DNA of 64,000 nt from Myxococcota bacterium. Its GTDB lineage: Bacteria; Myxococcota; UBA727; JAHDBA01. The stretch lies in the NCBI GenBank assembly GCA_020630615.1, contig JAHDBA010000001.1:14838-78837 (forward strand), given 5' to 3'. The notes beneath the pieces were generated by a model. It was not told the origin of the DNA. It did no database searches and was given only the letters and a program-made list of their open reading frames with translations. Shown here in pieces: positions 56,496 to 64,000 of this stretch. Made by a program: the position numbers and the translations under genes. Position 1 is the stretch's first letter, and each line of letters begins with the position of its first letter.

Positions 56496-57608
56496 CTAAG
56501 CTCTGGCTTCTCGCAATGAGGTATAGGTCATTTGGTGTGCGTCGGCGACAGCTTTATAGGTGAGCGCGCCGCCATATGTGTTGACACCAAGACGGATTGC
56601 TTCATCGGAATCAATTGCGCTATCGAGGCCTTGGTTTGCAATCTTCATCAAGTAAGGAAGGGTCGCATGATTGAGTGCATAGGTTGATGTGCGTGCAACT
56701 GCGCCAGGCATGTTCGCGACACCATAATGCACCACACCATGTTTAATGACCGTAGGTTGATCATGCGTGGTGACTTCACTGGTTTCAACAGAGCCGCCTT
56801 GATCAACAGACACATCAACAATGACTGAGCCTGGCTCCATCGCTTTAACGTGTTGTTCCGAAACCAAGCGAGGTGCACGTGCACCAGTGACCAGTACCGC
56901 AGCGACAACAAGGTCTGCCTTTTGAACATAATCATTAATATGGCTCGGGGTCGAATAAAGTGTGCGTACACGTCCTAGGAAAACATCATCAAGATATGCG
57001 AGTCGGTCGACATTCAGGTCAAGAATCGTGACTTCTGCCCCCATCCCCACAGCGATTTTCGCAGCATTCAGGCCAACCACGCCTCCACCGATCACGACGA
57101 CATGACCTCGGGGTACTCCAGGGACTCCCCCCAAAAGAACGCCTTTACCGCCTTGATGTTTATCAAGGCTCATCGCTCCGACTTGTGTTGCCATCTTGCC
57201 TGCGATCTCACTCATTGGCTTCAGAAGGGGCAGGCGTCCATCAACTTCAATCGTTTCATATGCAACCCCATGAACCTTTTGTTTGACCATTGCTTCAGTC
57301 AGATCTTTATCCGCCGCCAAATGAAGATAGGTGTATAAAATCTGATCTTCTCGCATGAGTTTGTACTCACTTCGTAAAGGCTCCTTGACTTTCACGATGA
57401 GATCACTTCGCTCCCACACTTCGTCGGCACGATCCACGATCTTTGCCCCAGCGGCAGTATACGCGGCATCGCTAATGCCGGCCCCAAGCCCAGCACCTTT
57501 CTCAATCAGTACCTGATGCTCTGTACGTACAAGTTCGGCAACCGATGCAGGAATAAGACCAATACGGTGCTCTTTGGATTTGATTTCTTTGGGACATCCG
57601 ACAATCAT
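56496..57608 (-). CDS. ald: Alanine dehydrogenase
   Basis: 370 residues, full length, NAD-dependent L-alanine to pyruvate and ammonia. Motifs: VGCPKEIKSKEHRIGLIP (substrate Arg and Lys region), KVKEPLRSEY, the YTYLHLAAD His region, MSEIAGKMATQVGA, the NAD-binding VVVIGGGVVGLNAAKIA, and NMPGAVARTST. It is divergent from the lipoprotein gene at 57710, about 100 bases away. Catalytic residues are in place. Confidence 0.95.
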   Translation of the reverse strand: MIVGCPKEIKSKEHRIGLIPASVAELVRTEHQVLIEKGAGLGAGISDAAYTAAGAKIVDRADEVWERSDLIVKVKEPLRSEYKLMREDQILYTYLHLAADKDLTEAMVKQKVHGVAYETIEVDGRLPLLKPMSEIAGKMATQVGAMSLDKHQGGKGVLLGGVPGVPRGHVVVIGGGVVGLNAAKIAVGMGAEVTILDLNVDRLAYLDDVFLGRVRTLYSTPSHINDYVQKADLVVAAVLVTGARAPRLVSEQHVKAMEPGSVIVDVSVDQGGSVETSEVTTHDQPTVIKHGVVHYGVANMPGAVARTSTYALNHATLPYLMKIANQGLDSAIDSDEAIRLGVNTYGGALTYKAVADAHQMTYTSLREARA

Positions 57609-57709
57609 CTTGAAACTCCACTATGAAGACACGCTCACAATATAAGCGCAAAAAGAATCGATTGGCGAACCACGAATGCCAAAAAAAATGTTTGAGGCAT
57701 CAAGCACGA

Positions 57710-59167
57710 ATGAACGGATTGATCGGTGTTATGCTATTGCAAATGCTTATTCTAGGCAGTGCATGCGGACATTCTTCTACATCGAAGCATACAAGCTGGA
57801 ATCGACATTTGGGGAAGGGCGAGGACTCTGGCGTATCGGAGATGGACACTTTGGAAGATGGCGATGCGAGTCTGTTGACACAAAAATCAAACAAAGTGCG
57901 GGACTCCGTTATTGCAGGTTGGCTCCACGAACATCAAGGTGTACCCGGTAGTGCGCTTGTTTGGCAGGCACGACAAGAGCTTGGAATTCGTGCGGGATCT
58001 TTCAGATGGTTTTTAGGCCCTCAAGAAAATATCAAGGTTGTCTTGCGCAAGGAGCCTGAACACATTGTCTTGGTTGAAGGAAAAAGCGAAAATCAACTTT
58101 CTCGACAAAAGGTTTTTGTAGAGATTCGTCTTAGGCAAGCACAGCAAGGAGCTGTCTATGATTTTTACTGGGTACAAAGCGATGGCGCGACGCATGTGAT
58201 ACGCAACATTAAAAATACGGTGCGTCTACCAAGTCAAAGTGCGCATTCGATACAAAGCTGGCAACTTGTACGTACGTTTCTCCCCAAGCAAAAGAAACCC
58301 CCCGTAGTGAAAACGCGTGTTGGAGAGAAGGGTGATGGTTGGGCGAAGCAACCGAATGACGATGAGGGCCTTGGACTACCGAAGATCATTCAATGGAGCG
58401 TGTTGAATGCGCATGAAAATGACTATGGATCTCAGTGCCTAGCAATCTCAAACCAGGTTGATTTCGAAGATTCTGTTGGTTTCACCTTGCCGAAACACAG
58501 AAATTTGGACGCCTTGCATGTTCTTGCGAAGCAACGCATTTTAGAGCTTTCTCAGGAAAACTCGATTCGACATCACCCAGGGATATTTGCGCGAAGAAAA
58601 TCAGAGTCGATGGAGCTTGAAAAGGGTTGGGTTGAGCTCTTGGCGCGAAGTTCCAGTCTCGAAGAGGCTTATCGTTTGTGGTGTTTGTCACCCTTTCACC
58701 GATTCATTCTACGACAGACACCCATGCGCGAATACACTTTAGTTACGGGAAAGCACAGCCCAGAGTTTGGTGTCGCAGAGGACACCTTCAACGTGGTGCT
58801 ATTGGGCCGTCGCGATGCGTCAAAAGTCAGCAGTTCAACTCTTGTAGAGACCCTTGACAACATTGAATCTGAACTTCGACTTTCACAACAAAAACTCGAA
58901 CCGAGAAAAAAGCTTCGTCGATTGCGCCAGCTCGAGCGTGAGTGTCAACGCACGACCCGACAACCGGGTTCGCAAGACCTTTGGGAGAAATGCATTGTTA
59001 AACAAAAGCGTGATAATTTAAATGGGCGTATTCGCTTTGAAATGTCCGCAGAGCAAAACGTGAACTTTGATCTTCAGAAGCTTCTAGGGAGCTCCGGGGC
59101 TATAGCTCTCCGCGCGGAACAAAGTGGTCCGGGTTTATTGGAGATAAGGATCCTTTTCTTCAACTAA
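57710..59167 (+). CDS. Lipoprotein with CAP-like C-terminal segment
   Basis: The open frame starts at 57623 only 14 bases from the divergent ald start, so I favour ATG 57710, which opens a lipoprotein signal (LLQMLILGSAC, Cys near residue 19). The 485-residue product is unassigned for most of its length. Residues near 245-400 carry a weak CAP/SCP-like pattern: ALHVLAKQRILELSQEN, EEAYRLWCLSPFHRFIL (compare the usual W-x-x-SPGHR), then FNVVLLGR. A Cys-poor, charged C-terminal coiled segment follows. Function unknown. Confidence 0.55.
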   Translation: MNGLIGVMLLQMLILGSACGHSSTSKHTSWNRHLGKGEDSGVSEMDTLEDGDASLLTQKSNKVRDSVIAGWLHEHQGVPGSALVWQARQELGIRAGSFRWFLGPQENIKVVLRKEPEHIVLVEGKSENQLSRQKVFVEIRLRQAQQGAVYDFYWVQSDGATHVIRNIKNTVRLPSQSAHSIQSWQLVRTFLPKQKKPPVVKTRVGEKGDGWAKQPNDDEGLGLPKIIQWSVLNAHENDYGSQCLAISNQVDFEDSVGFTLPKHRNLDALHVLAKQRILELSQENSIRHHPGIFARRKSESMELEKGWVELLARSSSLEEAYRLWCLSPFHRFILRQTPMREYTLVTGKHSPEFGVAEDTFNVVLLGRRDASKVSSSTLVETLDNIESELRLSQQKLEPRKKLRRLRQLERECQRTTRQPGSQDLWEKCIVKQKRDNLNGRIRFEMSAEQNVNFDLQKLLGSSGAIALRAEQSGPGLLEIRILFFN

Positions 59168-59202
59168 GATTGGGGTTAGGCTCGGACCATCTGAGGAAAG
59201 CC

Positions 59203-60150
59203 ATGGTGATGAGTACAGCGGCCAAAGTAGAACACATTCGTGAGCAGATCCGCGCCCAAGGCGATCGTTGGAGCCAGCAACAAGCCACGATCATCCGTGC
59301 CTTTCTTGAGTGCGATGGACACGTCGGTGCACAAGACTTGCATGCCAATTTGCTCGCCCAAGGACATAAAATAGGCTTGGCGACGGTCTATCGAATGCTA
59401 CGGAAGCTTGAGACGCTCGGTTTTGCACTTGTTCACTATTTTGACGAGGTCCAGCAACATTTCGAAGCGACAGGTTTTGATGAGGAGCACCACGATCACT
59501 TGATCTGTACGCATAGTGGCGAAATCATAGAGTTCCATCATGAAGAGATTGAGGAACGACAACGAAAAATTGCGATGGATCTCGGGTTCACGCTCGAAGG
59601 CCATGTCATGATGCTTTACGGGTTATCGCCGGAGGCACAAAAATCGAAAGAGATTGATTTTGACAGCCACATGTCGCGAGGCCATGGGCCCCAGAACAAT
59701 CGTGTCGAGCATGCAAGCCCGATCGAGCGTTTCGAAGCGACGAAAACAAAAATTCAAGAACGTGGTGAAAAGCTCTCCAAGACACGCGAAAAGATATTGC
59801 ACTTTATTTGCCATCATCAGCCGCATTGGACTCCGCAATCGTTGATGATTTCAATGCGAAAAGACTCGCTCGAATTTGGGCAAGCTACGTTGTACCGTGC
59901 TCTTTCATGGTTCGAGGAGCACTCCGTTTTGGTGAAACAAAATTTTACAAAAGGGCGGGTCGTTTATGAACTCGCAGAAAGTGCTGGGGAGCATCACGAC
60001 CATTTGATCTGCAAAGAAACAGGGGAAATAATTGAATTTTTCGATGCAGAACTCGAGAAGTTGCAAGACGATGTTGCTCGGTCGTATGGCTATATTTTGC
60101 AGCACCATCGAATGGAACTCTACGGAAAGCGATTCGGCTCCAAGAATTAA
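59203..60150 (+). CDS. Two Fur domains in a single chain
   Basis: GAGGAAAG precedes ATG 59203; upstream TTG 59170 is less likely. The protein has two full Fur/Zur-type units joined by a roughly 40-residue linker. Unit 1 (about residues 5-135): winged helix with IGLATVYRMLRKLETLGF, then the metal region EEHHDHLICTHSGEIIEFH. Unit 2 (about 175-315): FGQATLYRALSWFEEHSV, then GEHHDHLICKETGEIIEFF. Both keep the HHDHLIC and GxIIEF signatures but neither has a CxxC structural-zinc pair. A Fur protein is normally a homodimer of 135-150-residue chains, so this looks like a covalent dimer. The metal and target genes are unknown. Confidence 0.85.
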   Translation: MVMSTAAKVEHIREQIRAQGDRWSQQQATIIRAFLECDGHVGAQDLHANLLAQGHKIGLATVYRMLRKLETLGFALVHYFDEVQQHFEATGFDEEHHDHLICTHSGEIIEFHHEEIEERQRKIAMDLGFTLEGHVMMLYGLSPEAQKSKEIDFDSHMSRGHGPQNNRVEHASPIERFEATKTKIQERGEKLSKTREKILHFICHHQPHWTPQSLMISMRKDSLEFGQATLYRALSWFEEHSVLVKQNFTKGRVVYELAESAGEHHDHLICKETGEIIEFFDAELEKLQDDVARSYGYILQHHRMELYGKRFGSKN

Positions 60151-60164
60151 AAAACTTCTTTGAC

Positions 60165-60626
60165 TCAGTCGAGTGCAATTGTCTGATCCACTTCAGCGTA
60201 ATCAACATCTTGGTGTTCGCTTAAAGTCTTCACCAAAGCCGCTGCATCCTTCGAAGAGCCAAGCTTAACCACGAAGGTTTGATCGTACATAAAGTGAACA
60301 TCGGAAACGTTAAACTTTAAATTGCTTTCAAACCATGTTGATACCGCATCGTTTTCGTTGTTCCCGATCGATTTAAAACGTACAATAATGGCATTGTTGG
60401 ATCTCGCGTTCATTGTTGTATCCTTTTTTTGAAACTTAAGGGGCTCCCGGGATCGATGACTTCGTCTCGATGCGCTCTTCGCGTTGTCCAGAGTCGTATC
60501 TTGAGAACTTTTTAGAGTGGATGGTGCCCCACTTTGAGAACGCGTACAGGAAAGGTTCTGAAAACCCACAAGAATTATCGCGGGAAGCGTTGCGGTGCAT
60601 AAGGCGTGTTTAAGAACGAAAGACAT
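60165..60626 (-). CDS. Stand-alone I9-like propeptide lipoprotein
   Basis: 153 residues from ATG 60626 (ATG 60662 is possible). The N-terminal signal (TLPAIILVGFQNLSC) is lipoprotein-like, followed by a Ser-rich polar stretch. Residues about 75-150 (NAIIVRFKSIGNNENDAV, TFVVKLGSSKDAAALVKTL, YAEVDQTI) read as the inhibitor-I9 or subtilase-prodomain fold. There is no protease domain and no subtilase gene in the window. It could be a free-standing protease inhibitor or chaperone on the envelope. Confidence 0.6.
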   Translation of the reverse strand: MSFVLKHALCTATLPAIILVGFQNLSCTRSQSGAPSTLKSSQDTTLDNAKSASRRSHRSREPLKFQKKDTTMNARSNNAIIVRFKSIGNNENDAVSTWFESNLKFNVSDVHFMYDQTFVVKLGSSKDAAALVKTLSEHQDVDYAEVDQTIALD

Positions 60627-60732
60627 ATACGAAGTATAGGCAAATTCAGGACTAAAGTTCAAACCGAGCTTTGCTTTTCAAGCATGCATGTTTTGAGTTA
60701 GCTTCAACAGGCTTGTTCGAGTTGGAGTTACG

Positions 60733-62118
60733 ATGGGGCAAATACGCAGCGAAACGATTGTTGTTCGACAAGGGAATCACATCTTCTTAGAGGCGCCCAC
60801 CTATTGGTTGACCTTCCCAGATGGGCGTCGAGAGCATTTTGATATGTCACGGGTGTTGATCGGCTCAGGGTCAGGTTGTGATATCCAGCTACGAGATGTT
60901 GGTGTTTCCACTGTACACTGCGAGCTCGAGGTTTCACCACGTGGCATACGACTGCGTGACTTGGGTAGTACGAATGGTACATGGGTTAAGGGCCTCCGTG
61001 TCCAAGACCTTTGGCTACCACAGAGCGCAGAACTGCAAGTCGGAACAACACGAATTGGATACGCCCTTGCCGAAGAACGTACTCAGGAAGTCATGAGTAT
61101 AGAAGAAAACCTTGGTCAAGCAGTCGGGCGAAGTCCAGCGATGCGTTCTATTTTTGCCAAAGTGAAACGAGTGGCACCCAGTGATGTCAGTGTACTTTTA
61201 CGTGGTGAGACGGGCACAGGTAAAGAAGTCATTGCACATGAAATTTACTCATATTCAAAGCGCGACTCCAAACCCTTTGTCGTGATCGATTGCGGTGCGA
61301 TTTCACGGAATCTAATTGAGTCAGAACTTTTTGGTCACGAGAAAGGTGCTTTTACGGGTGCGGAGAAGCAGCGAATAGGAGCCTTTGAACGTGCGCAAGG
61401 TGGCACGATATTTTTAGATGAGATTGGCGAGCTTCCATTGGAGCTTCAGCCCAAATTACTTCGTGTATTGGAAAGCAAAACGATCCAACGCCTTGGTGGG
61501 GCTGGTCAGATACCGGTTGATGTTCGGGTTATTTCCGCAACACATCGTGATTTGAAATCTGAGGTGGCCAAAGGGAACTTCCGTGAAGATCTTTTTTACC
61601 GACTATCGGTTATCGAACTCGAACTTCCCCCTTTGCGGGATCGTGCCGAAGATATTCCAGCCTTGATTGAACACTTTGTGCAGCGCCAAAACGCAACGCT
61701 ACAGATGCTGCCAGACTCATGTGTTGAGGATTTCAAAGCACGACCTTGGCCGGGTAACTGTCGAGAGCTTCGCAATGCTGTTGAGCGAGCGTTAATATTG
61801 GGTGAAGTTGGAATCCGCGACGAAAGCGCCAGCCCTTTAAAAAGTGAGACGCAAGCCAGAGAAAGTACAATCGATGTAAGTCGTGTGGGTGAAATGGCAG
61901 CGTCGTTTATTGCATTGAACAAACCCTATAAGACTCAGAAAAACGAATGGAATGCCCATTTTGAAAGAAAGTATGTGAGTGAGGTGTTGGCGTTCACACA
62001 CGGAAACGTTTCGAAAGCTGCGAAGATTGCGGGCATTGATCGGATGAGCGTGCATAAAATTCTATCGCGGCATGAATTGAGTGTTGAAGATGTTTTGAGA
62101 GAGAAGGGTATGGGGTGA
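60733..62118 (+). CDS. FHA-domain sigma-54-dependent activator
   Basis: 461 residues: an FHA domain (about 40-110: [42 protein letters not shown]), the sigma-54 AAA+ domain (about 128-360: [15 protein letters not shown] Walker [15 protein letters not shown] loop contacting sigma-54, [13 protein letters not shown] Walker [23 protein letters not shown]), and a Fis-type helix-turn-helix at the C terminus ([21 protein letters not shown]). Such activators respond to Ser/Thr-kinase phospho-signals and are abundant in myxobacteria. No kinase is adjacent. The GAFTGA motif is intact, so it should activate transcription. Confidence 0.93.
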
Positions 62119-62134: not shown

Positions 62135-62692
62135 CTAACTCATTCGCGAAGTCAAAATCACAGAATCAAAGTTGATACTTTCATTCAGTGAATCGACGCC
62201 AACTTCTGGGTCTGCATCCAGGTGATTGAGTGAGAGTCGTAGTGAGGTGAGTGGATCAATTTCGAGTGGCGGGTTTTCGTTTTTTGGGGCGAGTGTGACC
62301 ATGAGATTTTCCCAAGCCACGAGTGAACGTGGATTGGACTCATCCCACTCGCGTGAGATTTCCAATGCGGGGAACGTTTGCTCAAGCGCATTGGGTTTGA
62401 TGATTTGAACTTGGCAGGCTATTTTCAAGCGTTTGGCTTGTGCAATGGCTTGCGTCACACATTGGGTAAAGTCCAAGAGCGCTTTGCACGCATCTTCAAG
62501 TAGACGGAACTTCCCGCGTTCCAAAATAAAGATAAAGGCGCGTTCAAGCAGCGCATAGTCGATGACATAGTCCTTCGGATAGGTCTCGCAAAGAATGTTT
62601 AAATTCAAATGCAAGGGTTGCTCAATCTGACGCTCCTCTGTGTATGCACCGATCAAAGCATGGACCTTCAGATCGTGCATTGTGACACGCAT
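62135..62692 (-). CDS. Dihydroneopterin aldolase-like (FolB) protein
   Basis: I chose ATG 62692, which begins the FolB-like start (RVTMHDLKVHALIGAY); ATG 62767 and 62812 would overlap the upstream gene. The first 110 residues match FolB: ALIGAYTEERQIEQPLHLNL, DYALLERAFIFILERGKFRLLEDAC, and a later strand with VQIIKPNALE. The C-terminal 60 or so residues extend beyond a normal 120-residue FolB and are unassigned. It could be folate-pathway aldolase, or a FolB-fold relative. No folK or folP is adjacent. Confidence 0.65.
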   Translation of the reverse strand: MRVTMHDLKVHALIGAYTEERQIEQPLHLNLNILCETYPKDYVIDYALLERAFIFILERGKFRLLEDACKALLDFTQCVTQAIAQAKRLKIACQVQIIKPNALEQTFPALEISREWDESNPRSLVAWENLMVTLAPKNENPPLEIDPLTSLRLSLNHLDADPEVGVDSLNESINFDSVILTSRMS

Positions 62693-62738
62693 CTTATCTT
62701 GTTTGGGTTCCAAGCAGGGTTGAGGGCGTGATTGCGGG

Positions 62739-64000
62739 TTAAGTGTTATGATGCGTTGATCGTCCATAACGACGAAGTCTAGAACGCCCTTCATTCCGTG
62801 CAAGCACCCCACAGGCTAAGAACAACCCGAGCACGAGAAGCCCAGGGGGTGAACTTGTGGCCTGGCACCCACCCTGACTATCGGGCTGAGCAAGGATCCG
62901 GATACGCTCAACATCGTTGTCGTTCACTTCTGTAGGCACCCAATTCTGACCCGCACTTTCATCGACAACTTGAACAAGGGGCGCATCGATAAGATAGCTT
63001 TGCCCGCCTTCAATCGGCAGGCGTTCATCGCTTTCTTCGTATCCCGCTGCACGGATCGAGATGTCCCACTCATTGGCAGGGAGTTCAAGCTCTGCGTAAC
63101 CTGTGGTGTCGGTAACGATCGTGAAATCTACAAAGTTTTGGTTGGCACTCTTAAACTCAATCGAGGCTGAATGAATCCCTGCTCGTGTCTCACGGTCTAC
63201 CACGGTAAAGGCAACAAAGCCAGGGTCCGTGGTATTCCCAAGCTCTTCAAGACCAATATCAAGTCTTGAAGAAGTACCCGCTGAGCCCGTATGAAATATA
63301 AATTGAGTGTCCGAGAGAAAACCATTGGCACTGGTGCTGATATAATACTCACCTTCTTGCAGCGACAGACTGTAGTTCCCTTCGGAGTCGGTCGCAACTT
63401 CAGTGCCGTTCGAAAAAAGGATCCTCGCATTTGGAATGCCGCTGCTCAGGATGTTCCTATTAAAGACGCGACCGTTGAGCACTCGAGAATTCACACCCAC
63501 AACAGGTTCGGAATCGATCACGACATTGGTATCAAAAACGATCGAATCCATTAACGCCATCGTTTCGGAGCCAGGGCAGGCTGTTGTTGCACCACTATGT
63601 TCGCGATGACCTTTGACGGTGGAACGATCCAAGTTGATTCCATAAAATGCAGCCGCATCACGAAGTGTATTTTGTAAGGTCGAGAGCATCGAAGACGTTG
63701 GGCTTGTGGGTTCGGTATAATTGGGAGCTTGGCACGCAGTATCCGCCGGGTCGAAACAACCGATTAAGGCAACACCAAGGTTGTTCGTGTTGTTGCCGCC
63801 CACATGTGAACCCAAGAGTGACTCGGGGCGCCCTTCATAAAGCGTTCCGCTTTGACCGATCAAATAGTGATACCCAACATCACACCACCCACGTCCATCG
63901 ATATGAAACGATTGAATCGCGCGAAGGCGACCAGCTTCATCACCCTGGTAGGTGTTTGGCGTGACGGTGTGGTGGATTGCAATCTTCTTTTTGACAACAT
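62739..64000 (-). CDS. PGRP-type N-acetylmuramoyl-L-alanine amidase, 5' end outside window
   Basis: The frame is open to the right edge, so the start and any signal peptide lie outside the window. The visible N-terminal part is a peptidoglycan-recognition/T7-lysozyme-like amidase: KIAIHHTVTPN (first zinc His), GWCDVGYHYLIG, LYEGRPE, GVALIGCFD and VKGHREHSGATTACPG (second His and the Cys ligand). Two Ig-like or CarboxypepD_reg-type beta domains follow (about 150-330). The C terminus (GGCQATSSPPG, a hydrophobic helix, then Arg-rich residues) looks like a MYXO-CTERM sorting tail. Surface-anchored cell-wall hydrolase is the likely role. Confidence 0.88.
   Translation of the reverse strand, partial: VVKKKIAIHHTVTPNTYQGDEAGRLRAIQSFHIDGRGWCDVGYHYLIGQSGTLYEGRPESLLGSHVGGNNTNNLGVALIGCFDPADTACQAPNYTEPTSPTSSMLSTLQNTLRDAAAFYGINLDRSTVKGHREHSGATTACPGSETMALMDSIVFDTNVVIDSEPVVGVNSRVLNGRVFNRNILSSGIPNARILFSNGTEVATDSEGNYSLSLQEGEYYISTSANGFLSDTQFIFHTGSAGTSSRLDIGLEELGNTTDPGFVAFTVVDRETRAGIHSASIEFKSANQNFVDFTIVTDTTGYAELELPANEWDISIRAAGYEESDERLPIEGGQSYLIDAPLVQVVDESAGQNWVPTEVNDNDVERIRILAQPDSQGGCQATSSPPGLLVLGLFLACGVLARNEGRSRLRRYGRSTHHNT

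Follow-up and report, generated by a model that had tools for sequence, protein, structure and literature searches.

Two Fur domains in a single gene

The window, by which we mean the whole 64-kb stretch of Myxococcota DNA analysed here, carries on its forward strand a single uninterrupted open frame, with no stop or frame break, encoding a protein of 315 aa in which two complete Fur domains (D1 and D2) are joined. Ordinary Fur, an iron-sensing repressor, acts as a pair of separate copies. Each half of the fusion, scored alone, was matched by the PF01475 profile (cut-off 23.1 bits), and an HHDHLIC...GEIIEF metal region was found in both. The original prediction of two complete Fur-type units in one polypeptide, each with its own metal region, was therefore borne out in frame, coordinates and domain content. 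D1 and D2 share 30-36% identity inside one protein. The NCBIfam Fur model NF006999 gave 161.5 bits against a cut-off of 146, a score that sums both domains. By profile, both domains belong to the Fur family (PF01475), while the chain departs from the family's single domain per chain; judged on sequence, the fusion is a variant architecture to which the Fur sequence family still applies.

An orthologous Fur-Fur protein of 295 aa was identified at locus L055 of a second genome (G001), on contig JAHDGS010000041.1 of a Myxococcota MAG from the same family and another genus; the window's own genome is referred to as G000. The two proteins are 38% identical across residues 7-310 of the window fusion and agree in the order of D1 and D2. 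The features considered in the window are as follows.

56496..57608, - strand: alanine dehydrogenase, syntenic and 74% identical in G001
57623..59167, + strand: probable lipoprotein gene, 35 bp upstream of the fusion; likely start near 57713; no Pfam match
59193..59196, + strand: Shine-Dalgarno-like GAGG, 6 nt before ATG 59203, read from the sequence
59203..60150, + strand: Fur-Fur fusion gene, 315 aa, two PF01475 domains; ATG at 59203, alternative ATG at 59209
59260..59619, + strand: Fur domain 1 (D1), residues 20-139, PF01475 102.2 bits
59377..59415, + strand: D1 recognition helix, residues 59-71, with Y63 and R64 as counterparts of the base readers Tyr56/Arg57
59626..59718, + strand: interdomain linker, residues 142-172, model confidence lowest at 161-168 (the linker of the G001 ortholog has 21 residues)
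59761..60123, + strand: Fur domain 2 (D2), residues 187-307, PF01475 102.0 bits
59881..59919, + strand: D2 recognition helix, residues 227-239, with Y231 and R232
60733..62118, + strand: FHA-sigma54 activator, syntenic and 57% identical in G001
62135..62812, - strand: FolB-like gene, syntenic and 32% identical in G001

Further neighbours shared with G001 include a phosphotransferase-like gene (37%) and a peptidoglycan-recognition-type gene (32%). At the place of the upstream lipoprotein gene, G001 has a gene of similar size, with no significant sequence similarity between the two; because this place is occupied by a similar-sized gene in both genomes, the lipoprotein gene and the fusion probably form one operon. 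Downstream, window positions 60165-60662 (- strand) encode another probable lipoprotein, which has a weak, below-cut-off match to a Fervidolysin_NPro-like protease prodomain and is conserved beside the FHA-sigma54 gene in G001. The otherwise shared neighbourhood of G001 also holds, between the fusion and the FHA gene, a mevalonate-pathway-like run at L055:11290-15238 (HMG-CoA reductase, kinase, IPP isomerase and decarboxylase, assigned by eye).

Both genomes are draft assemblies, and an assembly or sequencing error joining two neighbouring fur genes was accordingly considered. This concern, already raised with the original prediction, is answered by the ortholog: an independent second assembly has the same architecture in the same neighbourhood, with identity extending over the full length. 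The window's contig is moreover 267 kb long and its frame is unbroken. We reject this explanation and give it practically no credence.

Metal ligands, DNA readers and predicted fold

An alignment of D1 and D2 of both fusions to Fur from E. coli and from P. aeruginosa was read in E. coli numbering. The regulatory metal site (H33, E81, H88, H90, E101) and the second metal site (H87, D89, E108, H125) are complete in D1 and D2 of both genera. Tyr56 and Arg57, which read DNA in solved Fur-DNA complexes (residue roles and numbering from PMC4506495), correspond to Y63/R64 and Y231/R232 in the window protein and are the same in G001. Collectively, the nine metal ligands and the Tyr/Arg pair are kept in four out of four domains, and for this reason neither half looks dead and both look able to work. 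The original prediction had also pointed out that the two recognition helices differ; their sequences do differ as read, but they share the Tyr and Arg that read DNA. The minor-groove Lys position is occupied by Arg in both D1s and by Lys in both D2s.

A single Cys of the CxxC motif is retained in each half of the window protein (C102 and C270), the second being replaced by S105 and T273; in both genera D1 has Ser and D2 has Thr at this position. The C-terminal Cys pair is absent as well, and the two CxxC pairs that make up the structural Cys4 zinc site are thus missing. The earlier observation that neither unit has a CxxC pair was confirmed, but not as a special trait, as C-x-x-T likewise occurs in P. 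aeruginosa Fur (1mzb; C-x-x-T/S in the fusion), which demonstrates that a Fur is viable without CxxC. This protein is also the best solved relative of D2; unlike the fusion, it has a single domain and forms a dimer or tetramer of separate chains. Single-domain relatives in the same order retain CxxC, so the motif was probably lost at the time of the fusion or later.

AlphaFold models of one chain reached a pLDDT of 88 and a pTM of 0.74 for the window protein, and 92 and 0.79 for the G001 ortholog. These pTM values, judged from the score rather than from coordinates or PAE, exceed the value of ~ 0.5 that we estimate for two halves lacking a fixed arrangement, and some packing between the halves is therefore predicted, with the proviso that between-chain pairing could not compete in a single-chain input. 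The Fur fold itself was recovered: the window model gave Z 12-14 to solved Furs in a search mostly covering D1, and the G001 model a TM-score of up to 0.88 of the solved chain. An intramolecular dimer is a credible arrangement that fits these predictions, the pTM values giving it indirect support, and pairing of D1 with D2 within the chain is our preferred reading.

Compared with Fur as known from E. coli (8j6w) and M. gryphiswaldense (4rb1-4rb3), each half of the fusion shares the fold, the two metal sites and the residues that read DNA; the fusion differs by its two units per chain, the lack of a Cys4 zinc site and Arg for the minor-groove Lys in D1. A comparable arrangement is described for double histone fold proteins (PMC13088155), in which one chain holds two units of a DNA-binding fold that is otherwise dimeric and makes an intramolecular pseudodimer of them; their fold and function are unrelated to those of Fur.

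Distribution and history of the fusion

A search for other tandem Fur proteins, suggested along with the original prediction and run with the whole protein over related genomes, returned one, the G001 ortholog. No other match spanning both domains was seen among the matches listed, in E-value order, for 195 genomes of the phylum. No tandem Fur was found in the plasmids searched, or at a strict threshold in 398 genomes of another phylum (that of G195, a Perlucidibaca record), a search whose sole positive control was the G001 ortholog. A scan of the genome collection covering 80 loci likewise yielded the G001 ortholog only, and domain counts over 134 loci gave two Fur domains in just these two proteins. 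In the open-access literature searched, no description of a tandem or fused Fur was found.

A PF01475 search of both genomes returned the two fused domains and one further short gene each. The fusion is thus the sole canonical Fur in the two assemblies, from which another fur could be missing at 93% (G000) and about 70% (G001) completeness; the absence of a separate canonical Fur is firmer for the window's genome than for G001. The lone extra gene in each genome appears from its sequence to be a short, diverged, Zur/PerR-like member of the family. In the window's genome this gene (L003:1402-1821, - strand) encodes 139 aa with CxxC pairs, is divergent from an adjoining TonB receptor and is probably Zur- or PerR-like.

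Elsewhere in the order Fur is a single-domain protein, and the Furs of G002, G003, G006 and G008 are among the nearest tree relatives of the fused domains; unlike the fusion, they have one domain and keep CxxC. In a tree of the phylum's Furs the two D1s group together (99/93), as do the two D2s (98/85), for which reason the fusion is most likely older than the divergence of the two known genera. Placing all four fused domains in a single clade was neither supported nor rejected (AU p = 0.25), and branches are long for both domains, longest in the window's protein; this tree is compatible both with an internal duplication in the lineage and with the joining of two older paralogs.

Branches of this length would fit a history in which one half drifted to another job, such as binding a different metal or serving purely as a structural partner, with a graded or dual-metal response as the outcome, and a graded Zur (3mwm) offers a precedent in principle for unequal sites. 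However, all nine ligands are kept per half in both genera, and we consider such drift quite improbable.

Candidate operators and proposed mode of action

The canonical 7-1-7 Fur box TGATAATNATTATCA was searched with up to two mismatches, using the same pattern read backwards as a control. G001 contained 40 matches versus 7 in the control and the window's genome 9 versus 3, counts that reflect enrichment and from which the use of each single site does not follow. Matches in G000 lie mostly outside promoters of iron genes, and many of the further G001 matches fall inside coding sequence. The best individual examples are three G001 sites, all in promoters. A perfect palindrome precedes a gene for a solute-binding protein, after which comes an ABC permease gene. 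The sequence GATAACGATTATCGTTATC lies immediately ahead of a TonB receptor. The third, a 25-bp operator with the sequence GATAATGATAATCATTCTCATTATC, precedes a DUF4856 lipoprotein, the first gene of a four-gene run (DUF4856 lipoprotein, two unknown genes, TonB receptor) that ends in that TonB receptor. No relative of the G001 solute-binding protein was found in G000. The orthologous four-gene operon of G000, with proteins 33-46% identical, carries AATAACGATAACCATTCTCATTATC at the same place, identical in 22/25 bases; in 20,000 shuffles of that upstream region at most 19/25 were matched.

L199:8154-8178, - strand, and L200:1256-1280, + strand: 25-bp candidate Fur operators before the four-gene operon in the two genomes

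This pair of operators is the strongest evidence for the fused Fur acting on a classical Fur operator. The candidate operators are classical Fur boxes, either perfect 7-1-7 palindromes or the 25-bp inverted repeat, and the usual symmetric Fur site before iron-uptake genes is probably still what the fusion recognises. The DUF4856/TonB-receptor operon is itself a candidate iron-uptake system of this Myxococcota family.

No Fur box was found near the fusion or elsewhere in the 64-kb window, and autoregulation of the fusion was rejected on this ground. FeoB was rejected as a target, G000 having only a divergent FeoB-like gene; this encodes a 610-aa FeoB_N-type protein (L159:1468-3300, + strand) scoring 88 bits versus about 160 for the FeoB of relatives. 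A perfect palindrome in G000, TGATAACCGTTATCA at G000:C46:200507, overlaps the start of a 76-aa frame (L154:1286-1516, - strand) whose Lys/Cys-rich product (CCKKY...CKRCPK) had no Pfam match above cut-off and is possibly a Fur-controlled small protein.

It had been proposed from the unequal helices that the two halves read different half-sites within a non-palindromic operator. The modest identity of D1 and D2, the Arg/Lys difference at the minor-groove position in both genera and the differing flanks of the recognition helices would suit such an asymmetric regulator. Against this stand the identical base-reading residues of the two halves and the palindromic symmetry of the clearest candidate sites (11/12, 9/9 and 7/7 pairs), the G000 copy of the 25-bp operator being less symmetric (8/12). 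The proposal was not borne out, and we regard it as very unlikely; the 25-bp operator pair itself appears to count against a special asymmetric operator, mild asymmetry being compatible with it.

The explanation we favour, with a probability of roughly 60%, is that a housekeeping Fur has become a single-chain pseudodimer, with one chain per 7-1-7 box, repressing iron-uptake operons. This chain would have arisen, by tandem duplication or fusion of fur, in an ancestor of the two known genera. Within a chain, D1 and D2 would pair via their dimerisation domains, each half would bind Fe(II), the likely ligand, at the usual His/Glu sites, and the whole chain would read one palindromic Fur box. Iron-uptake operons such as that of the DUF4856 lipoprotein and TonB receptor would thereby be repressed. 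The 25-bp operator may take two chains next to each other, in the manner of two ordinary Fur dimers.

The same operator lends itself to another arrangement, in which two chains form a tetramer-like assembly, with D1 pairing with D1 and D2 with D2 across chains, hard-wiring the neighbouring dimers of a double Fur box. The best conserved operator is indeed a double site, which reads GATAAT-GATAAT-C-ATTCTC-ATTATC in one genome and agrees with this at 22/25 positions in the other. On such a site ordinary Fur places two dimers, bound to almost opposite sides of the DNA (PMC4506495). Tetramers are known for some Furs (PMC11353095), and both dimerisation domains of the fusion look intact. Several G001 sites (L184, L169) are however simple palindromes for which one dimer is enough, a linker of 21-31 residues would need to bridge two dimers on opposite faces, and the models of one chain are confident, in agreement with packed domains. 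We therefore judge the cross-chain assembly rather unlikely.

A broader view, possible but less likely than not, is of a single-chain Fur with unequal roles for D1 and D2, as either a heterologous pseudodimer or a two-chain clamp over the double Fur box. Metal sensing or operator choice would then be asymmetric, and ordinary Fur would be fully replaced in this lineage.

A survey has called the Fur family monolithic in architecture (PMC5882156), and whether Fur acts as a dimer, a tetramer or two dimers per box continues to be debated (PMC11353095). Tandem Fur has so far been found in one family of Myxococcota, in two genomes. With both halves of Fur in one natural chain, each half can be altered separately, which is impossible in a homodimer, and separate changes would show which metal site, DNA reader and half-site matters. 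A single-chain Fur would also show whether Fur must come apart to switch off.
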